Translations under genes and position numbers: made by a program | Notes under the pieces: generated by a model | What the model was told of the DNA's origin: nothing | The model's input: the letters and a program-made list of their open reading frames with translations, nothing else | Database searches by the model: none | DNA from: Chloroflexota bacterium | GTDB taxonomy: Bacteria > Chloroflexota > Anaerolineae > Anaerolineales > Villigracilaceae | Assembly (NCBI GenBank): GCA_016235445.1 | Contig: JACRLB010000038.1 | Location: 1 to 52,062 of the forward strand | DNA: 52,062 nt | Reading direction: 5' to 3' | Part shown: positions 1 through 17,879 of the stretch, piece by piece | Layout: each line of letters begins with the position of its first letter | Position numbering within the stretch: the stretch's first letter is position 1

Positions 1-852
1 CAATCCAAAATCCGTCTCGTGCGAATATTGACCCGTAAACTGATACTTCGTGCTTGCCGTTGCGTTCAGGGTTGTGTAGCGAGTTTCTCCCCAGGGCTTG
101 TACCTTTGCTCAAAAATAGAATTGCCATTCGCGTCTGTCGTTATGCTCGTTGACCCAAGATGATCGGACAGCAGGTAGGTTAAATTGCCATCCTTCCGCA
201 TGGCGATACGGGATGCGCCCGCAAAATAATATTTGGTGACACTGCCGCCCGTCACTTCGTAGTGACTGCCCACAAAGGTTGTCGTCGTCCCGTTGATCGT
301 GGACTCGACTCTCCTCCCATCCCCGTCATAGACGAAGGTCGCCATCACTGTGTTATTCTTCTTGACTTCGACCATGCGATTCTCCGCATCATATGCCAGG
401 TCATACGTGTCTGCGCCGACGATGCGTTTTGTCTGGTTGCCATTGGCATCGTGCCAGTATTTTTGTACTCCGCCAATATGTGTCACGGCATGTTCATGGG
501 TTGCATCGTTGTAATTCAAGTCCATGCCCGCTTTGATATCCAGGTTGCCATCCGCATCATAGGTATAGTTCTCGGTTGTACCGTTCAAATTCCAACTCGT
601 CAATCTATCCAAAGGATCATAGCCGTAGGTGTTCGTCTCGCTGGCAAGGGGATTTGTGATTTGTTTGACGTTCCCAGCCGCATCGTAGACGTAGCTCAGG
701 TTTTGCAAGCTGACAATACCACCCAGCCCGTCAGGTTTTGCGGTTGTCAGGCTTTGCAATCTTCCGCCTTGCGTACCCCAGGGGTTATAGGTGAAATTTT
801 GGGTGAGGCCGTTGTCGAGGAGGCGCGAAATCAATGCGTCTCGTGGAATCAT
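1..852 (-). CDS. RHS repeat core fragment (partial, runs off left edge)
   Basis: Minus-strand frame open across the left edge. Its translation carries YD-type repeats and the hallmark RHS core run with the motifs YLLSDHLGST, RYKPWGE and TGQYSH, so it belongs to the RHS/YD-repeat shell proteins that encapsulate polymorphic toxins. ATG 852 is only the first in-frame ATG; there is no convincing ribosome binding site, and the same frame stays open upstream to the stop of the preceding lipoprotein gene. Just upstream of 845 a different frame reads like RHS sequence (STAYDSTRR), so a frameshift near 840-850 is possible. The fragment lies directly after a possible immunity gene, the usual place of a displaced orphan RHS module. 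The identity of the fold is firm; whether it is expressed is doubtful. Confidence 0.75.
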   Translation of the reverse strand, partial: MIPRDALISRLLDNGLTQNFTYNPWGTQGGRLQSLTTAKPDGLGGIVSLQNLSYVYDAAGNVKQITNPLASETNTYGYDPLDRLTSWNLNGTTENYTYDADGNLDIKAGMDLNYNDATHEHAVTHIGGVQKYWHDANGNQTKRIVGADTYDLAYDAENRMVEVKKNNTVMATFVYDGDGRRVESTINGTTTTFVGSHYEVTGGSVTKYYFAGASRIAMRKDGNLTYLLSDHLGSTSITTDANGNSIFEQRYKPWGETRYTTLNATASTKYQFTGQYSHETDFGL

Positions 853-890
853 AGGCGGTGGACTGTAAATTTCTGAGTTGAGTACTAAAA

Positions 891-1925
891 TCACTTTGCT
901 AAATCTATAATAACCACATCTTCCCACCAGTTACCTGAATTATTGGTTAGGACAACTATTTTTGAACCATCTGCTGACCAGTCAAAATAGGTATTCTCAT
1001 CCCATAATCTTTTAATTTTTCCATCTGCAGTATCCAATAGCCAAATTCCCTCCATATCATCAAACGCAGTGCCTCCAAACAAAAGCGAATTACCGTTTAT
1101 TGGAGACCACTTGAGGCCGTAAATGTTCCCTACTAACGGTAAAAGAACCCTTACGTTGCTTCCATCAGCATCCATAAGGTAAATATCCCAAGGATAATAA
1201 AGTAACGATCCTATATCATTCCAGGTGTTCAGAGTAGTATTTTCTGAATTTGCTTTGGTGCCAGCAAAGGCAATTGTCTTTCCGTCAGGCGACCATGCTG
1301 GAGATCGTGCTCTTTTAAAATCTGGTAAGAGTTTTGTAATTATCTTTTCTGAATTAACTAAATAGAGTTCATTGCTTGTTCCACCGATTCCGTTTTCCTG
1401 AATAAATTGTGTCATATCTGGGTCAAAACTGAAAGATGTTGCAAGGAATTTTGGGTAATTTTCCCATGCAATAAAGTCGTTTTTGTTTTTATCCAATAAA
1501 TACAATGTGCTTGATATTCCATTATCTGAGTGACAACGAAACACAAGCCCCAAGGAGCCATTAGGAAGTTTAGTGAGCTCATGAATACCACTTGGTCGTG
1601 GAAAACAGCCTGACGGCAGGGGTATTTGGGGTAAAGTCTCAATGTTCCCGCTAGTAACTTCTAGTATATCCAGGCGAAAATCATTATCAAGGCCGTTTAC
1701 TCTAAGCTCATCGGGGCGGTAAATAAAAGCGATGAGATCATCTTTAAGCCAGGAAACAGATTTGTAATCACCTTGTTGAACAGCTAGTGCCTGCGTGGAA
1801 ACCGTGTCGCTAATATCTTGGTACAAACTTGTTTTACAACTTGTCATTAAAGTTGCAAGAATGACAAAAACAACTCCTAATTCATTGAACTGTATACGCG
1901 CTTGTCTGTTAAATATTTGGTTCAT
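891..1925 (-). CDS. PD40/TolB-like beta-propeller lipoprotein, possible RHS immunity protein
   Basis: 344 aa. ATG 1925 is preceded by AAAGGA at good spacing; a longer upstream frame overlaps the RHS end and is not needed. The N-terminus has a hydrophobic segment ending in a lipobox-like LMTSC, suggesting an exported lipoprotein. The body carries several PD40/WD40-like blades (PAWSPDGKTIAFAG, GLKWSPINGN, FDWSADGSKIVV), typical of TolB-type beta propellers. The gene starts 10 bp after the stop of the RHS-tip gene, so the two are probably co-transcribed, and an orphan RHS core follows. That is where polymorphic toxin loci carry immunity genes, but the immunity role is inferred from position only. 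Base composition is more A/T-rich than the glycan cluster, consistent with transfer. Confidence 0.7.
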   Translation of the reverse strand: MNQIFNRQARIQFNELGVVFVILATLMTSCKTSLYQDISDTVSTQALAVQQGDYKSVSWLKDDLIAFIYRPDELRVNGLDNDFRLDILEVTSGNIETLPQIPLPSGCFPRPSGIHELTKLPNGSLGLVFRCHSDNGISSTLYLLDKNKNDFIAWENYPKFLATSFSFDPDMTQFIQENGIGGTSNELYLVNSEKIITKLLPDFKRARSPAWSPDGKTIAFAGTKANSENTTLNTWNDIGSLLYYPWDIYLMDADGSNVRVLLPLVGNIYGLKWSPINGNSLLFGGTAFDDMEGIWLLDTADGKIKRLWDENTYFDWSADGSKIVVLTNNSGNWWEDVVIIDLAK

Positions 1926-1935
1926 GGCAATCCTT

Positions 1936-3108
1936 TTAACGTCCCTGATAACCGTACGGATGTATTTGAGTACCCCATATACCCCAGGAAACAAAATCTG
2001 GGGCTTGTCCTAAATATTGAAAAAAAGCTGTTTCAACTGCAGTTCTTGGATCTGCGTATACAGAAAATATATTGTTGCTGCAAGTTCCGTTATTACGACA
2101 CCATATTCCCGTAGAGCGATATCCATTTGCTCCAGCAAGGAATAATCCAATTTTTAATTGAACTCTAGGGTTAGAATTATTAAATCGGGCTGTTGTTTCG
2201 GACAATGAGACGCCATAATTCACTCCCCCTTGCTCTCCCGCAAGACGAAGGGCGATTAAGCCATCAAGGTTCGAATCTTGCCAGCCGTCATAATAGGCGG
2301 CAAAGAATGCGGCCCATGCCCCTCCTCCTCCTCCTACGGGAGATTGATTTTTATTTATCCTCATTCCATTGTTTATAGCTTGTAGAACAGCGGCGTCCAT
2401 ATATGCCGCCCACCCAGACATATCTTGATAATCTGGGTCGCTACTGAGAATATCAATTGCGCCTTTTATATCATCAAACCAATCTTCAAGGTTGTTGTTT
2501 GCAACAAAATCATCTAACCATTCTTTCCTTTCATCCCATGACATATTTTGAAAATCATCTAAAGTGATAGGCTTATCTCCGCCATTTATACACTTTCCAT
2601 TTAAATCTTCATCGCACCCAATGTGACCAGTCGGGTCCGTATATCGAACTGGCGAGTTATTCACATACGCATACCGATCATACCCCTGCACCCCGCCAGG
2701 GACAATGGTATCGGCGGAGGTGAATCTGCCTAATGCAGGGTCGTACATTCTTGCGCCGTAATGCATTAAGCCGAATCCCTCACTCGCGGGTGTGGACGGG
2801 TCGTCCATATGGGAGTATTGTCCCGTGAAGGTGTATTTGGTCAACGCGTAGGCGGGATTCGCGTTCAGGGTGTCATTTGTCCACGAGTAGCGGACTTCGC
2901 CCCAGGGCTTATATCTCATTTCAGAGACTTTTGCTCCCGTGCTGTCGGTGGTCATGCTGGTGGAGCCGAGGTGGTCGGAGAGGAAGTAGGTGAGGACGCC
3001 GACTTGTGGAACGGTGTATTTTCTGGCGGCGATGCGGGACGTCCCTGCGAAGTAGTATTTCGTGACTGTGCCATTTGTCAGTTCGTAATGAGCGCCCGCT
3101 GTATATTT
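1936..3108 (-). CDS. RHS repeat-associated core protein with C-terminal tip, 5'-truncated
   Basis: About 390 codons of an RHS protein without its N-terminal shell. The first recognisable RHS residues are AGAHYELTNG near 3105-3080, followed by SDHLGST, RYKPWGE, TGQYSH, the core closing motif YDPALGRFTSADT and YAYVNNSPVRYTDPTGH. After the TDPTGH boundary comes a tip of about 230 residues with an acidic, Trp-rich start, a Gly5 run and an aromatic-rich end; I do not recognise the tip family. RHS homology stops at about 3105, exactly where the TetR promoter begins. The open frame continues antisense through the TetR gene, but that part has no RHS character. This looks like a rearrangement breakpoint or a displaced C-terminal module. 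No plausible start codon with a ribosome binding site was found. Confidence 0.75.
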   Translation of the reverse strand, partial: KYTAGAHYELTNGTVTKYYFAGTSRIAARKYTVPQVGVLTYFLSDHLGSTSMTTDSTGAKVSEMRYKPWGEVRYSWTNDTLNANPAYALTKYTFTGQYSHMDDPSTPASEGFGLMHYGARMYDPALGRFTSADTIVPGGVQGYDRYAYVNNSPVRYTDPTGHIGCDEDLNGKCINGGDKPITLDDFQNMSWDERKEWLDDFVANNNLEDWFDDIKGAIDILSSDPDYQDMSGWAAYMDAAVLQAINNGMRINKNQSPVGGGGGAWAAFFAAYYDGWQDSNLDGLIALRLAGEQGGVNYGVSLSETTARFNNSNPRVQLKIGLFLAGANGYRSTGIWCRNNGTCSNNIFSVYADPRTAVETAFFQYLGQAPDFVSWGIWGTQIHPYGYQGR

Positions 3109-3120
3109 ACACTGTATAAT
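3101..3120 (+). promoter_or_regulatory. TetR gene promoter with candidate autoregulatory operator
   Basis: A perfect -10 hexamer TATAAT lies at 3115-3120, 15 bp before the TetR start codon. TTTACA (3106-3111), a C and TGTATA (3113-3118) form an imperfect dyad overlapping it, the arrangement expected for a TetR-family repressor controlling its own gene. The operator role is inferred. Confidence 0.5.
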
Positions 3121-3135
3121 AAACAAGGAGAGAAA

Positions 3136-3828
3136 ATGGTCCGCCCCAGCAAAAAGCAACAGATCCCCAACCTTTCGGAAGCCATCAAGGAAACCGCCTG
3201 GAAACAGATTGCCGAATTCGGCGCGCCAGCCCTGTCTCTGCGCGCCATCGCCCGCGAGTTGAAGATCACCGCCCCCGCCATCTACAACTACTTTCCCAAC
3301 CGCGATCAACTCGTCACCGCTCTCATCGTGGATGCGTACACCTCGCTGGGGGATTCGCAAAAAACAGCATTGGACAACGCCTCGAAAAAAAACGGCGCGG
3401 CTCGCTTTTCCGCGCTTGGAATTGCCTATCGTGATTGGGCAATTGCCTACCCTCAACGCTACCAGCTCATCTTCGGCACACCCATCCCCAATTATGACGC
3501 CCCCGAAGACACCACATTGCCAGCTTCTGCCTGGGCGCTCCTGCCGTTGATTCAGACCGTTCAGGTTCTTTATAACGAAGGCAGATTGCGGCTTGAAGGA
3601 TTCGCCAAACTGTCGCCAAAACTAAAATCCATGCTTGAAGCGTGGAAGCAATCTACCGAAGGCGTCACCGAAACCGAAGCGCTATACCTGGCATACATCG
3701 TCTGGTGCCGCGTGCATGGGCTGGTGATGCTCGAACTGGGCGGCCAGCTTCCCTCCTTCTTTACCGACCCCGGCGAAGTCTTCCGCTGTGAAATTGCCAC
3801 CATGGTCAATCAATATATTGGTGAATAA
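3136..3828 (+). CDS. TetR/AcrR family transcriptional regulator
   Basis: 230 aa. ATG 3136 follows AAGGAG with 5-nt spacing; a longer in-frame extension reads antisense to RHS and is rejected. Residues about 15-60 form the TetR helix-turn-helix (LSLRAIARELKITAPAIYNYF followed by the NRDQLVTAL helix). The C-terminal two thirds match the WHG-type (TetR_C_33-like) ligand domain with W-A-I-AYPQRYQLIFGTP. Likely a homodimeric repressor responding to a small molecule. The nearest candidate target is the oxidoreductase gene downstream, separated by a 367-bp repeat-filled gap, so co-transcription is uncertain. Confidence 0.9.
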   Translation: MVRPSKKQQIPNLSEAIKETAWKQIAEFGAPALSLRAIARELKITAPAIYNYFPNRDQLVTALIVDAYTSLGDSQKTALDNASKKNGAARFSALGIAYRDWAIAYPQRYQLIFGTPIPNYDAPEDTTLPASAWALLPLIQTVQVLYNEGRLRLEGFAKLSPKLKSMLEAWKQSTEGVTETEALYLAYIVWCRVHGLVMLELGGQLPSFFTDPGEVFRCEIATMVNQYIGE

Positions 3829-3838
3829 CTCATCTTAC

Positions 3839-4054
3839 TTTGACAATGTTACATTAAAGCTGAAATCAAAGTTCTTAACCACAAAGGTCACCAAGTAACA
3901 CGAAGGAAACCTTTGGGTTTAGCATTTTACTCTCCTCACCTGCACTGCAACACACCTGCCCTGGCGGGCGGTGCCAGGGAACGCAGTGCGGCGCAAGTGT
4001 TGTGACCCTTTGTGGACTTTGTGGTAAAAGGTTTTGAAATGTGACATTGTCAAA
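3839..4054. repeat. MITE-like element with 18-bp terminal inverted repeats
   Basis: TTTGACAATGTTACATTA at 3839-3856 and the reverse complement of 4037-4054 agree at 16 of 18 positions. Inside is a second nested inverted pair: ACCACAAAGGTCACCAAG near 3878-3895 against CTTTGTGGACTTTGTGGT at 4008-4025. No reading frame is present. The 216-bp size, terminal inverted repeats and lack of coding capacity fit a non-autonomous mobile element or a mobile hairpin. It occupies most of the gene-free stretch between the TetR and epimerase genes. Confidence 0.55.
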
Positions 4055-4070
4055 TTACGCAGGCAAAAAG

Positions 4071-4138
4071 CATCGCCACAGAGTACATAAAGAAAACCAT
4101 GAGAAAAAACTCAAAGAACTCTGTGTGCTCTGTGGCGA
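4071..4138. repeat. Intergenic inverted repeat of the CACAGAG/CTCTGTG type
   Basis: CGCCACAGAGTACATAAAG near 4072 is mirrored by CTGTGTGCTCTGTGGCG ending near 4137, giving an imperfect hairpin just upstream of the epimerase gene. The wording resembles the nested repeat of the adjacent MITE-like element, so both may belong to one dispersed family. It may also act on the mRNA leader. Confidence 0.45.
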
Positions 4139-4195: not shown

Positions 4196-5128
4196 ATGTC
4201 ACAAAATGAACTGCACGTAATCTTCGGCACCGGCGCGCTCGCCAAATGGACCGCCCGCGAACTAGTCAGGCTGGGCAAGCCAGTCCGCATGGTCAGCCAT
4301 TCAGGAAAGGCCGACCCCCGCATCCCCGCAGAAGTTGAAGTTGTCCGCGGCGACGCCTACAATGTCAACCGCAACATCGAAGTCACCAAAGGCGCGGCGG
4401 CGGTCTATCAATGCGCCCAGCCGCTTTACCACCAATGGACTGAAAAATTCCCGCCCATGCAAAAAGCCATTCTCGATGCCGTCTCTGCCAACGGCGCAAA
4501 ATTCATCGTCGGCGACAACCTCTACATGTACGGCGACACAAACGGCCAGCCCATCCGCGAAGACATGCCGTATCAGCCGCACACCAAAAAAGGCAAAGTC
4601 CGCGCACAGATGTCAACCGCCGTCATGGACGCGCATCGCGCAGGCAGAGTCCGCGCCGCAATTGGCCGCGCCTCCAACTTCTTCGGCCCAGACGACAACG
4701 CCGTAACCTCCTTCGCCATTCGCCCGGCCCTTGCAGGGAAACCCGTCAACTTATTTGGAAGCATGGATCAGCCGCACACCTTCTCCTACGTGGCCGATTT
4801 TGGAAAACTGCTCGCAACCCTCGGCACACGCGAAGAAGCCCTCGGCCAGGTCTGGTTCACGCCTTCCCCCGCGCCTGTCACACAGGCCGAACTGGTCAAG
4901 ATCATGGAAGATGTTCTCGGGCAAAAAGTCAAATTCATGCTTGCCAGCCGCATGATGATGAACGTCCTCGGCCTCTTCATTCCCGCCCTGCGCGAGTCGG
5001 TCGAAATGCTCTACGAATGGAATCAACCCTTCATCATGGATTCCAGCAAAGCCCAAAAAACCTTCGGCTTAAAGCCCACTCCCTTAAACGACGCCATGCG
5101 CGCCACCATCGAATGGTGTATTAAGTAG
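4196..5128 (+). CDS. NAD-dependent epimerase/dehydratase family protein
   Basis: 310 aa. ATG 4196 follows AAAGGAG. An N-terminal Rossmann motif is present in a relaxed form (VIFGTGALAKWTARELVRLG), as in extended/atypical SDRs. The usual YxxxK triad is not obvious: the region GDNLYMYGDTNG followed by KGKVRAQM suggests a Tyr at about residue 109 but no clear YxxxK. FGPDDN and the C-terminal MLYEWNQPFIMDSSKAQKTFGLKPTPL are typical of sugar-nucleotide epimerase-like proteins, the latter matching the substrate-binding lobe. Substrate unknown. The gene is convergent with the GT4 gene and their stop codons lie 2 bp apart. Confidence 0.8.
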   Translation: MSQNELHVIFGTGALAKWTARELVRLGKPVRMVSHSGKADPRIPAEVEVVRGDAYNVNRNIEVTKGAAAVYQCAQPLYHQWTEKFPPMQKAILDAVSANGAKFIVGDNLYMYGDTNGQPIREDMPYQPHTKKGKVRAQMSTAVMDAHRAGRVRAAIGRASNFFGPDDNAVTSFAIRPALAGKPVNLFGSMDQPHTFSYVADFGKLLATLGTREEALGQVWFTPSPAPVTQAELVKIMEDVLGQKVKFMLASRMMMNVLGLFIPALRESVEMLYEWNQPFIMDSSKAQKTFGLKPTPLNDAMRATIEWCIK

Positions 5129-5149
5129 GTCAAATTGCCAATTTGACCT
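5127..5149. terminator. Bidirectional hairpin between convergent genes
   Basis: AGGTCAAATTG at 5127-5137 and CAATTTGACCT at 5139-5149 form a perfect 11-bp inverted repeat with a 1-nt centre that overlaps both stop codons. There is no T tract, so termination is inferred. A related palindrome (GGTCAAGCT, TTC, AGCTTGACC) sits inside the neighbouring glycosyltransferase at 6566-6586. Confidence 0.5.
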
Positions 5150-6230
5150 GCAATTTCATAAACCCCAAAAATTCCTCCCTGAATCTTTTGGATGAAAAGC
5201 GGGCCGCGTTCTCTTGCGCGGCCTCGCTGTTTAATTTCATTTTTTCGGATTGAAGAACCGCCCCGCTCAAACTACGGGACGATTGCTCCTGAAACAACAA
5301 GCCTGTTTCTCCATCTTTGACAATTTCAATTGCGCCGCCCTTGCCATACGCGATCACAGGGCATCCCGCCGCCTGCGCCTCCACCATCGCAATCCCAAAA
5401 TCCTCCACCGCCATGTACACGAAAGCCCTGGCGCGGCTGAGCAAATCGGCAATCACCTCATCAGGTTGATGCCCCAGCAGTTTGACATTTTCCTTTGCCA
5501 GCTTTTGCAGGCGCGGCATTTCAGGTCCATCACCGACGATGACGAGCGGAAGATTTAATTCATTGAAAGCGCAGATGATTTCAGCCGTCATTTTATAAGG
5601 CACCAGCCTCGATACGTGGATGTAAAAATCCCCGCGTTCACTGGCGGGTGAGAATCGTTCCACATTCACGGGCGGGTAAATGACATGCGAATCCCTGCCC
5701 CAAGCCTGTTTGATTTTTTGCGCTGTCCACTGCGAGATGGCGAGCAGGTGGTCTGCCCGGGCGGCGGAAACTCTGTCCCAATGACGGAGCAGGCCCAGGG
5801 TTAGGCGGGCGGCGGCCCCGATCAGGGGCTTGTCCAAATGATGCAGGTGCAAATAATCATCCTGCAAATGCCAGGCGTAGCGCATCGGCGTGCAGATGTA
5901 TGAAATGTGGATTTGATTTTTGTGAGTTTTTATGCCATGCGCCACCGCATGTGAAATGGACAGCACAACATCGTACTCTTGCACATCCATGCTTTCGATG
6001 GCGAGCGGCATGATCGGCAACAGCCCGCGATACAAATGCTCGACGCGCGGAATTTTTTGCAGGAAGGATGTTTTGACATCGCGGCCTTCCAGCGGGGTGC
6101 CAACCAGATTTTGCCTGTTGTGAATGAGCGCGTGCAGTTGCGCCTGCGGATGCAGTTTCAACACCTCCACCAGCAGTCTCTCAGACCCGCCATAGATATT
6201 CAACCATTCATGGACGATGGCAAGTTTCAT
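5130..6230 (-). CDS. GT4 family glycosyltransferase
   Basis: 366 aa. ATG 6230 overlaps the stop of the upstream GT gene in ATGA, indicating translational coupling. The protein has the two-lobed GT-B fold: an N-terminal acceptor lobe starting KLAIVHEWLNIYGGSERL and a C-terminal donor lobe with the VSRLVPYK nucleotide-sugar loop, VIVGDGPE and the E-x7-E type motif EDFGIAMVEAQAAGCPVIA. This is the pattern of retaining GDP-mannose or related GT4 enzymes (WbaZ-like). Probably cytoplasmic, adding a sugar to a lipid-linked surface glycan. Donor and acceptor cannot be read from the sequence. Confidence 0.9.
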   Translation of the reverse strand: MKLAIVHEWLNIYGGSERLLVEVLKLHPQAQLHALIHNRQNLVGTPLEGRDVKTSFLQKIPRVEHLYRGLLPIMPLAIESMDVQEYDVVLSISHAVAHGIKTHKNQIHISYICTPMRYAWHLQDDYLHLHHLDKPLIGAAARLTLGLLRHWDRVSAARADHLLAISQWTAQKIKQAWGRDSHVIYPPVNVERFSPASERGDFYIHVSRLVPYKMTAEIICAFNELNLPLVIVGDGPEMPRLQKLAKENVKLLGHQPDEVIADLLSRARAFVYMAVEDFGIAMVEAQAAGCPVIAYGKGGAIEIVKDGETGLLFQEQSSRSLSGAVLQSEKMKLNSEAAQENAARFSSKRFREEFLGFMKLQVKLAI

Positions 6231-11329: not shown

Positions 11330-12774
11330 CTCAAATCCTCTTCGGCCAATCCTACTATCTGCGCTTCGACCCCAAACTCTGGGATGCGATGATGCCCTAT
11401 CCGCCATTGGGGACGTTGTACGCCGCAAGTTACATCCGCGAAAAAGGCTATGAGGTGGCGCTCTTCGATGCCATGCTGGCAGAGTCCGAGGAAGAGTGGG
11501 CGGTCTCGCTCGATGAACACAAACCTCGATACGCCGTCATCTTTGAAGACAACTTCAACTACCTCTCCAAAATGTGCCTCCTGCGGATGCGCGAAGCCGC
11601 CTTCACCATGATCCACATGGCAAAGGAACGCGGATGCGTCGTCGTCCTCTGCGGTGCGGATGCAACCGACCATTACCCCGAATATCTCGCACAGGGCGCG
11701 GACTACTGTCTGCTTGGCGAAGGGGAGGAAACTCTCGCAGAATTACTGGATCAGTTGTCGGGTAAAAATGAAGCGAAAGCTGGGCTTGAGTCAATACTGG
11801 GATTGGTGTACAAATCGAAAATCGAAAATCGTAAATCTGAAATCGTTCGCCGCCCCGATATCACAACCCTCGACTCTCTCCCATTTCCCGCCTGGGATTT
11901 GGTGGACATCCAAAAATATAAAATGCTCTGGCTCGAGCGGCATGGATATTATTCGATGAACATGGTCACCACGCGCGGATGCCCGTATCACTGCAACTGG
12001 TGCGCCAAGCCGATCTGGGGACAGCGTTACAATTCGCGTTCGCCTGAAAATGTGGCCGCGGAAATGAAATGGCTCAAGCAAAATTTTGCGCCAGACCACA
12101 TCTGGTTTGCGGATGATATTTTTGGGTTGAAGCCGAATTGGGTCGAGCAATTTGCAGAGTTGCTGCGCGAGAACGATGCCGTGATTCCGTTCAAGTGTTT
12201 GAAACGCGCCGACCTGGTGACGGAAAAAACAGCGCGCGCGCTTGCGAATGCAGGTTGTAAAACCGTCTGGCTCGGCGCGGAATCAGGCTCACAAAAAATT
12301 TTGGATGCGATGGACAAAGGCGATAAAGTGGAAGATATTTATCGCGCCGCTGAATTGCTTCGTGAGAATCAAATCGAAGTTGGTTTCTTTTTGCAATTCG
12401 GCTACCCTGGCGAAACATGGGACGATGTGCAATTGACTTTGAAAATGGTGCGCGAATGCCTGCCCGATGATATTGGCATTTCGGTTTCCTATCCCCTGCC
12501 TGGCACGAAATTTTTCGAGCGCGTAAAAACGGAACTCGGCGAAAAACAAAACTGGGTTGATTCAGACGACCTTGCCATGTTGTATCACGGGCCGTTTCCG
12601 CAGGAGTTTTACCGCATTTTACATGGACGAGTCCATCACGAATTCCGTCTGCGCCGCGCATGGAAGAAACACGACGCGCGCGGCCTGGTCCGCACGCCGT
12701 ATTATTTGCTTGGCATGGCGCGGAGTGAATTGAAGTTAAGAAGCTTTTTAAACAGGACTTTCGCAAGGCCTTGA
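11326..12774 (+). CDS. B12-binding-domain radical SAM protein
   Basis: 482 aa, overlapping the previous gene in ATGA. N-terminal cobalamin-binding-like domain (PPLGTLYAASYIREKGYEV; GADATDHYPEYLAQGADYCLLGEGEETL) followed by the radical SAM domain with the 4Fe-4S motif TTRGCPYHCNWCAKP near residue 220 and a TIM-barrel core (WFADDIFGL, GAESGSQKILDAMDKG, GFFLQFGYPGE). This is the architecture of B12-type radical SAM methylases and other enzymes; substrate unknown, but a sugar or lipid of the surrounding glycan cluster is plausible. A 7-nt tandem repeat at 11812-11845 encodes a short insert between the two domains. The C-terminal residues are written by the palindromic element starting at 12755. 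Confidence 0.88.
   Translation: MTQILFGQSYYLRFDPKLWDAMMPYPPLGTLYAASYIREKGYEVALFDAMLAESEEEWAVSLDEHKPRYAVIFEDNFNYLSKMCLLRMREAAFTMIHMAKERGCVVVLCGADATDHYPEYLAQGADYCLLGEGEETLAELLDQLSGKNEAKAGLESILGLVYKSKIENRKSEIVRRPDITTLDSLPFPAWDLVDIQKYKMLWLERHGYYSMNMVTTRGCPYHCNWCAKPIWGQRYNSRSPENVAAEMKWLKQNFAPDHIWFADDIFGLKPNWVEQFAELLRENDAVIPFKCLKRADLVTEKTARALANAGCKTVWLGAESGSQKILDAMDKGDKVEDIYRAAELLRENQIEVGFFLQFGYPGETWDDVQLTLKMVRECLPDDIGISVSYPLPGTKFFERVKTELGEKQNWVDSDDLAMLYHGPFPQEFYRILHGRVHHEFRLRRAWKKHDARGLVRTPYYLLGMARSELKLRSFLNRTFARP
11812..11845. repeat. In-frame heptameric tandem repeat in the radical SAM gene
   Basis: Degenerate copies of the 7-mer AAAATCG (AAATCG, AAAATCG, AAAATCG, TAAATCT, GAAATCG) encode KSKIENRKSEIV at the linker between the B12-like and radical SAM domains. 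The same words occur between genes at 36358-36408. Confidence 0.6.
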
Positions 12775-12872
12775 AAGCGTCCACTAATCTCCACGAATTT
12801 ACGCTAATCTTTTTAAAAATTCGCGTGGATTGGCGTAGATTAGCGGACAAAAAAAGCGCCCTGCGTAAATCC
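12755..12872. repeat. Palindromic element with GGACTTTCGCA / TGCGTAAATCC ends
   Basis: GGACTTTCGCA (12755-12765) faces TGCGTAAATCC (12862-12872). The interior is a long palindrome of TCCACTAATCT...ACGAATT against AATTCGCGTGGATTGG...AGATTAGCGGA. It is the second copy of the family at 7247-7363. It begins inside the radical SAM gene, whose last codons and stop come from the element. Confidence 0.5.
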
Positions 12873-12953
12873 TATTAAATAAAACCGTTTGATCGTGGAC
12901 GACAGACCATGCTGTGTGGTCCACGGTCTATCGTCATTCCCACTGGAGACCCT

Positions 12954-13760
12954 ATGTCAATACGAAACTCCGCATTTCAAACCGTCGCTGAAGCCTACGA
13001 CCGCAATGCCGACAAATACGATGAATTCATCGAAAACAACCCCAACCTGATGCGAATGCGCCAGCGGGTTTATCAATTCATCACCGCGCGCCTGCCCAAA
13101 GACTCCCGCATCCTCGACCTTGCCTGCGGCACAGGCACAGACGCAATCTGGTTCGCGCAAAACGGCTACTCCGTTTTCGGCGTGGATATTTCAGGGGAGA
13201 TGCTCGAACGAGCAAAGGAAAAAGCGAGGGGGTTGAATCTGCCAAACCGTTTATCCTTCGAGCAATTGTCCTACACCGATTTGAAAGACGCGAACATCGG
13301 CCAGTTCGATCTCACCTTCTCGAACTTCGGCGGCCTGAACTGCGTTGCGGATATGAAGCTGGTCGCCGAGAGCGCGCGTCCACTGCTCAAACCCAATGCC
13401 CGTGTGATCTGGGCGCTCATGCCGCCGTTCTGCCTGTGGGAGTCTGCCATGCTTTTGCGCGGAAAATTCAAACTTGCCACGCGCCGCTTTGCTGGAAAAT
13501 CCACCGTGTTCAAAGAAGGCTTGAATTACCCCGTCTACTATTACACGCCGAAGCAGGTTGCCGAAGCTTGGGGCAGTGGCTTTCAACTTGAATCAATCGA
13601 AGCGCTTTCGGTCATCACCCCGCCCGCCACGAACAAAGACTTTGCCGTAAAACGTCCGCGCCTGTTCGAGACCCTCAGTAAACTCGATGATGTTTTTGCC
13701 CCGCGCTGGCCCTTCAAATATTGGGGCGACTTCACCATCGTTTCGCTGGTCCGGAAATAA
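12954..13760 (+). CDS. SAM-dependent class I methyltransferase
   Basis: 268 aa. ATG 12954 is preceded by TGGAG; the frame upstream has no methyltransferase character. Motif I ILDLACGTGTDAIWFA (residues about 50-65) and the acidic motif II VFGVDIS define a class I (Methyltransf_11/25-like) Rossmann methyltransferase; LTFSNFGGLNCV is the post-II region. The C-terminal half (KSTVFKEGLNYPVYYYTPKQVAEAW) resembles methyltransferases of polysaccharide and polyketide clusters. Acceptor unknown; location between the radical SAM protein and the flippase suggests glycan modification. Confidence 0.88.
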   Translation: MSIRNSAFQTVAEAYDRNADKYDEFIENNPNLMRMRQRVYQFITARLPKDSRILDLACGTGTDAIWFAQNGYSVFGVDISGEMLERAKEKARGLNLPNRLSFEQLSYTDLKDANIGQFDLTFSNFGGLNCVADMKLVAESARPLLKPNARVIWALMPPFCLWESAMLLRGKFKLATRRFAGKSTVFKEGLNYPVYYYTPKQVAEAWGSGFQLESIEALSVITPPATNKDFAVKRPRLFETLSKLDDVFAPRWPFKYWGDFTIVSLVRK

Positions 13761-16117: not shown

Positions 16118-16648
16118 ATGAACAAACAAGGTCGTTCCCAACTTGCGCTTGGCGTCATTCTTATTTTGCTTGGCGCGTGGTTCCTCTTGGACAAAACCCT
16201 CCCCGCTTTTCACAATTTCTTCGATAAATACACCGCATGGCCCACCAACATGCTTTTGATCGGCGGCGGGATTTTCATCATTGGGCTTGTGCTTGGCTCG
16301 CCTGGGCTTTCTGTGCCTGCCGCAATTGTGGCGGGGTTGGGCGGCATCTTCTACTATCAGGAGACCAGCGGTAATTTTGAATCCTGGTCGTATATGTGGG
16401 CGCTCATCCCTGGCTTTGTTGGCGTTGGGGTTGTGCTGCAGGGACTGCTTGGCGAGAACACAGGATATAACCTCAAGCGCGGACTTAACCTCATGGTGAT
16501 CAGCGCGGTGCTGTTCCTCGTCTTCTCCTCCTTCCTCGGCGGATGGGAAATCCTCGGCAACTTTGGCCCTGCCGTCCTTCTCATTTTGCTTGGTGTATGG
16601 GTTCTCGGCAGTGGGTTGTATCGCACCTTCCGCCGCAAAGAAGAATAA
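16118..16648 (+). CDS. Small polytopic membrane protein (LiaF/DUF5668-like)
   Basis: 176 aa with about six hydrophobic segments. The opening QLALGVILILLGAWFLLDKTLP and closing GPAVLLILLGVWVLGSGL resemble the repeated helical hairpins of LiaF N-terminal/DUF5668-type membrane proteins. ATG 16118 follows ACAGGAGAATGAAAT. It sits one base before the next membrane gene, so the two are co-translated and may interact. No catalytic motif; function unknown. Confidence 0.75.
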   Translation: MNKQGRSQLALGVILILLGAWFLLDKTLPAFHNFFDKYTAWPTNMLLIGGGIFIIGLVLGSPGLSVPAAIVAGLGGIFYYQETSGNFESWSYMWALIPGFVGVGVVLQGLLGENTGYNLKRGLNLMVISAVLFLVFSSFLGGWEILGNFGPAVLLILLGVWVLGSGLYRTFRRKEE

Positions 16649-16649
16649 C

Positions 16650-17432
16650 ATGCGCCGCGGTGTTGATATGAAGCGATTTGATCCCCGAATAGTTTTAGGT
16701 TCCCTGCTCATTATCGGCGGCGGTCTGGCGCTTGCCGAGACGATGGGCTATTTACAAAATGCCACCGATATTTTTTGGGGCGGCGTGTTCCTTGTTGCCG
16801 GGCTGGCTTTTCTATCCCTGCTTTTTGGCAGGCATTGGTGGAGCGCCTTTCCCGGTTTCACCCTCGCTGCTCTCGGCGCTCTCATCATCCTTCCCGATTC
16901 GCTGGAGGATTTTGGCGGCGCAATTTTTCTTGGCGGCATCGCGCTTTCGTTCTGGTATGTCTATTTCACCAGCCGCAATGACAGATGGTGGGCGCTGATT
17001 CCTGCCGGGGTGATGACGGCGCTCGCGCTGGTGTCGATTGCGTCCCTGCGTTTTGAAGAATACTCTGCCGCGGTGTTCCTTGGCGGCATAGGGCTGGCGT
17101 TTTTCATGGTGTCATTTACCAACATGGCCGAGCGTTGGTGGGCTTTGATTCCTGCGGGCGTATTGTCCACGCTGGCGGGAGTCACCATTGCCGCCGAAAA
17201 ATTTGGCGAATTTCAAACTGCTGGCTTTTTCTTCTTCGGCCTGGCTGTTACATTTTTGCTGGTCGCGGTGTTGGCGAAGATGAGCTGGGCATATTGGCCC
17301 GCGTTGGTTTTGGGAATTATGGGCTTTCTGGGAATCGCCTCGCTTCTGGATTTTTCAAATTACGTCTGGGCCATTGCGCTGATCGCCGCGGGCGGTTTTG
17401 TGCTGGTGCGGTATTTTACGGCAGGTAGATAA
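16650..17432 (+). CDS. Polytopic membrane protein with internal repeats
   Basis: 260 aa from ATG 16650 (alternative ATG 16668). About eight to ten hydrophobic segments, arranged as near-repeats around the motif ERWWALIPAGV: RNDRWWALIPAGVMTALAL and AERWWALIPAGVLSTLAGV occur about 50 residues apart, each followed by FGGAIFLGGIALSF/EYSAAVFLGGIGLAF-type stretches. The N-terminus (IVLGSLLIIGGGLALAE) resembles the upstream gene. Probably a small-membrane-protein duplication; function unknown. Confidence 0.75.
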   Translation: MRRGVDMKRFDPRIVLGSLLIIGGGLALAETMGYLQNATDIFWGGVFLVAGLAFLSLLFGRHWWSAFPGFTLAALGALIILPDSLEDFGGAIFLGGIALSFWYVYFTSRNDRWWALIPAGVMTALALVSIASLRFEEYSAAVFLGGIGLAFFMVSFTNMAERWWALIPAGVLSTLAGVTIAAEKFGEFQTAGFFFFGLAVTFLLVAVLAKMSWAYWPALVLGIMGFLGIASLLDFSNYVWAIALIAAGGFVLVRYFTAGR

Positions 17433-17443
17433 CAACGAACAAA

Positions 17444-17481
17444 GAATCAACATCCCCGCTGTAAAGCGGGGATGTTGATTC
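17444..17481. terminator. Bidirectional terminator-like hairpin
   Basis: GAATCAACATCCCCGC (17444-17459) and its exact complement at 17466-17481 form a 16-bp perfect stem with a 6-nt loop, between two convergent genes. No T run follows, so it may equally be a dispersed palindrome. Confidence 0.6.
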
Positions 17482-17505
17482 TACCTATCCGTCCTCGGTG
17501 TTTTT

Positions 17506-17751
17506 CTATTTTGCTTCAACCACGTTCACACCCGGAAAAAATTGATGCACAGTCCCTGCCACCCAGCCATGCAGGGTGGACGGTAAAAGCGGGCAGTTCA
17601 GACATGCGCCCCCCAATTTGACTTCGAGTGTATCGTTTTGAAACGAGATAAACTCAACTGTGCCGCCATGATACTGCTCGATGTACGCGTTCAAGTTTTC
17701 GATAAGATGCCTAATCTGGGTTTCCTGGACGGTCATTTCCATTGCGGTCAT
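17506..17751 (-). CDS. NifU C-terminal-like Fe-S scaffold protein
   Basis: 81 aa. ATG 17751 follows AAGGAGAT. The small alpha/beta fold of the NifU C-terminal domain is recognisable from GGTVEFISFQNDTLEVKLGGACLNCPLLPSTL, with the C-x-x-C pair (CLNC) that binds a transient Fe-S cluster. Stand-alone proteins of this type (NfuA/NifU-like) deliver clusters to apoproteins, here possibly the many Fe-S enzymes nearby. Most family members carry C-x-x-C-P, as here. Confidence 0.85.
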   Translation of the reverse strand: MTAMEMTVQETQIRHLIENLNAYIEQYHGGTVEFISFQNDTLEVKLGGACLNCPLLPSTLHGWVAGTVHQFFPGVNVVEAK

Positions 17752-17879
17752 GGGATCTCCTTTTTATTTACACGCCTTAAGCAGTAGGGGCGACCCTTCA
17801 AGATTTGTCGAGATACTTTGCTTCAGATGGGCGGGTTGCCCCTGCGATTGCGGAGGAAGTTTCGCGTAAGATGAGTTAT

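Follow-up and report, generated by a model that had tools for sequence, protein, structure and literature searches.

Contig JACRLB010000038.1 of a Chloroflexota bacterium (family Villigracilaceae; GenBank assembly GCA_016235445.1), analysed here as a window of 52,062 nucleotides, opens with a cassette in which a short RHS core runs into a 228-residue tip and is followed by the gene for a PD40 β-propeller lipoprotein and by a further RHS core. The window is contig C21 of an assembly of 4.13 Mb (55 contigs; 98.3% complete). We think it likely that this cassette is one of several in a polymorphic RHS toxin array, that the tip is an exchangeable toxin domain and the lipoprotein its immunity protein, and that the two meet outside the cytoplasmic membrane. 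The features of the locus are:

2623..3108, minus strand: short RHS core, truncated at its 5′ end, in frame with the tip; Rhs_assc_core (TIGR03696) match at 2623–2913, 63.3 bits (cut-off 32.5).
1939..2622, minus strand: presumed toxin tip, predicted to be all-helical, 228 residues after TDPTGH; stop codon at 1936–1938.
894..1925, minus strand: PD40 β-propeller lipoprotein of 344 residues, presumed immunity protein; ATG at 1925, stop codon at 891–893.
1..876, minus strand: RHS core, degraded at its 5′ end and most likely that of the next cassette; RHS_repeat (PF05593) match, 49 bits (cut-off 22); runs off the contig start.
3135..3828, plus strand: boundary gene outside the cassette, TetR-like by reading alone (open reading frame (ORF) list and sequence); the cassette core is cut here.

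These coordinates, with matches to TIGR03696, PF05593 and PF07676, bear out an earlier note on this DNA (the original prediction) that described two RHS core segments in the same orientation with a lipoprotein gene between them. Its order of core–tip, small gene and orphan core also stands, except for the word ‘orphan’. Bases 1–130 of the window reappear without a mismatch as the first 130 bases of contig C37. On that contig a core of this kind reaches its end and carries a tip (C37 2–946) and a membrane partner (C37 949–1374) of its own, so the second core is probably no orphan and, judging from this overlap, most likely continues on C37. The tip was correctly placed after TDPTGH, although its length is 228 rather than 230 residues; the conserved region spans residues ~20–170, and D76, E130, Q131, Y168 and R169 are invariant among the aligned tips. 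Ten bases separate the tip stop codon from the lipoprotein gene, the product of which matches the PD40 profile PF07676 as predicted (29.9 bits; cut-off 20.9) and carries one N-terminal hydrophobic segment with a lipobox-like MTSC motif. Among the sequences of solved structures, Tc/Rhs proteins match the window core (best E = 4.6 × 10−6).

Matches to the tip were found in 8 of 400 genomes of the phylum, by single sequence and by profile alike, and a profile scan of the genome collection returned five loci, two of them new. In total there are 12 distinct tip loci in 10 genomes (G000, G112, G311, G043 (two), G102 (two), G078, G070, G110, L056 and L057 (Caldilineaceae)). Loci L058, L059 and L060 correspond to contigs G112 C3, G043 C76 and G102 C4 and were counted once; L047 (G070 C108) was left out, as its contig starts inside a like toxin, only the C-terminal end of which precedes the lipoprotein. 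At all 12 loci a PD40 protein gene lies directly downstream on the same strand. The 10 loci within the 400 genomes were also matched by a search with the window lipoprotein, and the partners at L056 and L057 pass the PD40 cut-off. Co-occurrence in other genomes was the check that the original prediction had proposed, and its worry that the lipoprotein might accompany unrelated genes rather than this tip is answered by the 12-of-12 linkage.

The delivery trunk, by comparison, varies. An RHS core precedes the tip at five loci (G000, G112, G311, L056 and L057; the window’s identified by profile, the other four by reading) and a WXG100 trunk at six, whereas a contig end leaves the trunk of 1 of the 12 unassigned. 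All three WXG100 proteins scanned pass the Pfam cut-off and both of two also pass that of NCBIfam; the other three such trunks were identified by eye, one of them broken by stops. No WXG100 match was obtained in the own genome, that is, the genome of the window. One tip with its partner thus occurs on two unrelated export trunks, which is the pattern of exchangeable toxin modules. Separately, the contig of L056 is labelled Woesearchaeota and carries an RHS array with Chloroflexota-like tips and lipoproteins; it is probably a binning error, or a transfer.

The partner also occurs in tandem and without the tip. Three tandem partners stand behind one Herpetosiphon toxin (G043 C167) and two at G043 C76, and partners without this tip occur in the RHS arrays of G104 (same genus as the own genome) and G150. 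An orphan PD40 lipoprotein occupies a shared place in three Herpetosiphon-type genomes (L049:2642-3661, L053:2497-3558 and L055:2477-3496). The best eight loci outside the own genome in the lipoprotein search comprise five beside the tip (one seen by the C-terminal end of the tip only), two in RHS arrays and one Herpetosiphon-type orphan. In G112, G110 and G043 C167 the partner gene is open although the tip beside it is broken by internal stops or shifts of frame; some of these breaks could be due to sequencing errors. The lipobox cysteine is common to six aligned partners from five loci. Linkage by itself would also fit a lipoprotein that anchors or chaperones the tip or helps to export it, as proposed for MafA with MafB toxins, and MafA is described as a lipobox protein encoded beside MafB in the consulted parts of a 2012 survey (Zhang et al., PMC3482391). 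We nevertheless hold that role to be highly improbable here, because the partner lies downstream, tracks the variable tip rather than the constant trunk, and has these tandem and tipless copies, whereas the same parts of the survey place MafA upstream and tie it to the constant domain. The neighbours of the Herpetosiphon-type orphan, named by reading, are a carboxypeptidase-like lipoprotein on one side and dnaN on the other.

The pairing of variable tips with membrane-associated partners extends through the own genome. Searching it with core and tip yielded 15 matches, distributed over C21, C37, C6 and C22; the window core recurs, beyond what chance would give, at 80–90% identity in 11 further stretches on C37, C6 and C22, eight of them longer than 70 residues. 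There are ~10 such cassettes, and ten were read together with their partner genes; their cores are 80–90% identical to that of the window, except for one variant at 66–72%. These ten exclude remnants at C37 6529-6858 and at C22 45128-45250, as well as an additional small membrane protein that follows tip d of C6. By hydropathy and lipobox, five partners are lipoprotein-like, five transmembrane and none soluble. The lipobox expression found four of the five lipoproteins; the fifth (TGSC, behind C6 tip d) was accepted by reading and has a second hydrophobic segment, so that it might be a transmembrane protein. The original prediction expected a secreted β-propeller lipoprotein to be an unusual immunity partner, but lipoprotein partners are common in the cassettes of this genome (5 of 10 partners read); the polymorphic-toxin logic that it invoked is also seen in the array, where one kind of core bears different tips.

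Tips b and d on C6, the sole pair of own tips compared, are homologous. Two of the own tips carry HExxH; the likeness between them is 28.5% over 200 residues, and that between their partners 29% over 259. One own tip matches an α/β-hydrolase weakly, at E = 0.01 and under the cut-off; its partner is a propeller lipoprotein of the Reg_prop type. The congener G414 likewise has a propeller lipoprotein (31% over 370 residues) behind a tip that is hydrolase-like (28.6% over 112 residues), and the lipoproteins behind two HExxH tips there are related to those of the own genome (E = 2.8 × 10−15 and 0.003). A membrane segment is predicted in three of the five tips with transmembrane partners and in one of the five with lipoprotein partners; we rejected a rule that would pair hydrophobic tips with transmembrane partners and soluble tips with lipoproteins, as these counts show only a trend.

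Further observations concern the arrays themselves. In two congeners, Rce1/CPBP-type membrane proteins (PF02517; L074:14330-15241 and L075:3980-4786) partner Ser/Thr/Pro-rich RHS tips; we take these partners to resemble CPBP bacteriocin self-immunity proteins. The array at L074 also includes, by eye, transposase-like genes (4394-5575 and 16558-17796) and an orphan near-copy (12310-13161) of the lipoprotein at 3225-4076. Repeats around GTACTGTCGGTT, read by eye at the ends of C6 and C22 (L011:1-140 and L013:7220-7300), look like the termini of a single mobile element, present in several copies, at which the assembly broke within an RHS array. A short C37 tip (L012:1487-2182) has the same first 12 residues after the core, IGCDEDLNGKCI, as the window tip (there at 2622-2587) and then diverges from it, as if by recombination with its joint inside the tip.

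The ten own-genome core matches lie in frames of 152–561 amino acids, one of which is interrupted by the end of its contig. In a search of 20 congeners, by contrast, six had cores in long frames of 2,049–4,103 amino acids, some of these cores scoring under the profile cut-off. The own set thus has the appearance of cassettes that have been displaced, with no expressed full-length gene to go with them in the assembly. G402, of the same genus, has both arrangements: a long RHS frame, then two short-core cassettes. In the window, the core begins at ~3108 without a start codon, and the cut beside the opposite-strand gene at 3135–3828 leaves this copy without start, signal or trunk; no full-length trunk with an export signal was found at the locus, and the copy is probably silent. 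Promoter-like sites in 800–3300 number 10, against 4.4 expected. The locus is accordingly degraded, as the original prediction had it: the first core is missing its 5′ part and the next core also lacks its start. Together with a core profile scan of the assembly that yielded no full-length RHS gene, these features would suit mere debris, a dead array fragment in which at most the lipoprotein is functional, and which would be compatible with a toxin–immunity pair elsewhere. We consider this somewhat unlikely, because neither the tip nor the lipoprotein is interrupted and the core retains its 80–90% identity to the other stretches, as in silent but usable cassettes.

The tip itself has no match in Pfam or NCBIfam. 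It is thus, as predicted, of an unrecognised family, and the common non-toxic structural domain that the original prediction had feared did not appear. No relative was identified among solved-structure sequences, in which weak matches to keratin (two, E = 0.67) and AcrIIC2 (E = 0.12–0.31) were taken as chance. The tip was not found in plasmids by the tip search, nor in viral contigs by the search with core and tip or by the tip profile. No catalytic motif was recognised in it, and in Herpetosiphon ~200 further residues, including a DUF6799-like stretch, follow the tip domain. Both points would suit a non-toxic surface, adhesion or wall-binding domain that forms a surface complex with its partner. 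That this is the nature of the pair seems quite improbable, given that the tip occupies the place where other cassettes carry HExxH or hydrolase-like tips and is common to RHS and WXG100 trunks.

A structural model of the tip built from six sequences (mean predicted local distance difference test (pLDDT) score 70.4, predicted template modelling score 0.71) is helical over residues 21–160, where ten-residue blocks have pLDDT values of 71–94; from residue 182 on, values are mostly below 50. Foldseek returned at best E = 2.8 against the Protein Data Bank (PDB; not MLP) and E = 1.3 against viral models. Realignment of the 81 best Foldseek chains placed the platypus MLP entries (4v00 and 6b4m) first, with Z scores of 10.5 and 10.1 over 167–168 residues; the next row scored 4.5. 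The match is at 3.5 Å and 7% identity, it comes from one tip model, and helical models can reach such Z scores by chance. The LEG1 profile PF05612 matched none of eight tip homologues at E values up to 10, in a search whose filters drop most weak matches, and nothing in the own genome at E values up to 0.1. Its one match among 301 genomes (own and phylum; E = 0.04, under the cut-off) was rejected as a small ORF outside RHS context by reading.

We therefore treat the resemblance of the modelled tip to MLP and LEG1 (DUF781) as a lead only, without sequence support. According to the sections consulted, MLP has a reported new fold and is antibacterial against Staphylococcus aureus and Enterococcus faecalis (PMC4834066), its LEG1 family is reported from bacteria to mammals (PMC7060313), and LEG1 is a domain of unknown function (PMC4834066 and PMC7060313). 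The tentative helical fold match is to MLP, the chains of which are 343–344 residues long, against 228 for the tip. A shared fold, and perhaps origin, has been argued likewise for teneurins and bacterial RHS-type proteins in the consulted part of PMC13018210. That the tip is a bacterial toxin with a LEG1/MLP fold, sharing that fold and perhaps its origin with vertebrate LEG1 and the monotreme milk protein, and that its antidote is a new β-propeller lipoprotein immunity class, is a tentative proposal that we judge unlikely on present evidence.

Returning to the tip as an exchangeable toxin domain with the lipoprotein as its immunity protein, we infer a toxic tip, neutralisation by binding, a target in the envelope and recombination onto a full-length gene. 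Given a complete trunk, whether RHS or (in Herpetosiphon) WXG100, the tip would be exported, and its site of action would be a neighbour’s envelope, outside the cytoplasmic membrane. The lipoprotein would be anchored on the outer face of the owner’s membrane, where its propeller would bind and block the tip. The short-core cassettes of the own genome would form a reserve from which recombination in the conserved core could transfer a cassette to a full-length RHS gene, and the tip–lipoprotein pair would move between delivery trunks. Action outside the cytoplasmic membrane is suggested by localisation: with a lipid anchor, the propeller sits at the point of first contact between an exported toxin and the envelope of the owner or a sister cell, where it would not encounter a cytoplasmic toxin.

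Several observations weigh against this picture. Toxicity of the tip and its neutralisation by the lipoprotein are presumed, and the lack of a recognised catalytic motif and of a full-length RHS gene in the own assembly, noted above, count here too. A single family, f35 (Herpetosiphon and a relative), supplies seven of the 12 tip loci; these are not independent, so there are fewer independent linkage events than 12. PD40 proteins as such are widespread: 133 of the 400 genomes from the phylum match, many through generic partial matches, and in G252 (L054) one sits among unrelated genes by reading. Anchoring varies, as two of the three G043 C167 copies have an atypical lipobox, LIRC, and the G150 homologue has no N-terminal cysteine; the partner ORF of H. 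geysericola is shorter (295 amino acids). Soluble partners exist by reading, one in G402 and several in G150. The HExxH tips of G414 gave no BLAST match to those of the own genome, although their partners match. With these points counted, the sequence comparisons support the tip–lipoprotein pair as a polymorphic toxin cassette with a presumed immunity partner.

As a kind, the polymorphic toxin cassette is known. The consulted parts of the 2012 survey (PMC3482391) describe RHS toxins with standalone cassettes that share the RHS core, variable tip, downstream partner, short-core array, and tandem and orphan immunity genes; the differences here are a tip outside Pfam and NCBIfam and a β-propeller lipoprotein as partner. 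In those parts, β-propellers were not found among immunity proteins and Imm65, which pairs with Tox-JAB-1, is the only lipoprotein. Imm65 likewise has a signal peptide and lipobox, but is α+β and strictly linked to the JAB toxin, in contrast to the PD40 propeller and predicted all-helical tip described here. No named Imm family (Imm65 or other) matched the partner, which gave only PD40, TolB, other propeller-type or weak Pfam and NCBIfam matches. TolB of Tol–Pal, the form in which alone PD40 appears in the consulted part of PMC5536347, shares the PD40 propeller; unlike it, the partner has a lipid anchor and sits in RHS and WXG100 toxin loci, and an assignment to TolB was rejected (TIGR02800, 31.8 bits; cut-off 343.15). 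A parallel, likened by description, is VgrG2b, a type VI secretion system metallopeptidase toxin that is neutralised by periplasmic PA0261; in the sections consulted (PMC6899460), PA0261 without its signal peptide gives no protection and its enterobacterial homologues are predicted lipoproteins. That system likewise combines an envelope-acting toxin with extracytoplasmic immunity, which is a predicted lipoprotein in some relatives, but differs in its delivery, and the HExxH tips of C6 are the nearer analogy to VgrG2b. A full-text literature search returned no report of this tip–PD40 lipoprotein pair, an absence that is not proof. As far as searched, the tip family and the PD40 propeller lipoprotein as partner are new.

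What the cassette contributes is a presumed toxin domain of an unrecognised family and, closely linked to it, a lipid-anchored β-propeller partner, a class not in the main polymorphic-toxin survey. If the resemblance to MLP is real, the LEG1 family would gain a testable bacterial model with a ready inhibitor. For the organism itself, all ten partners read are membrane-associated, which suggests that its RHS arrays mainly attack the cell envelope from outside.

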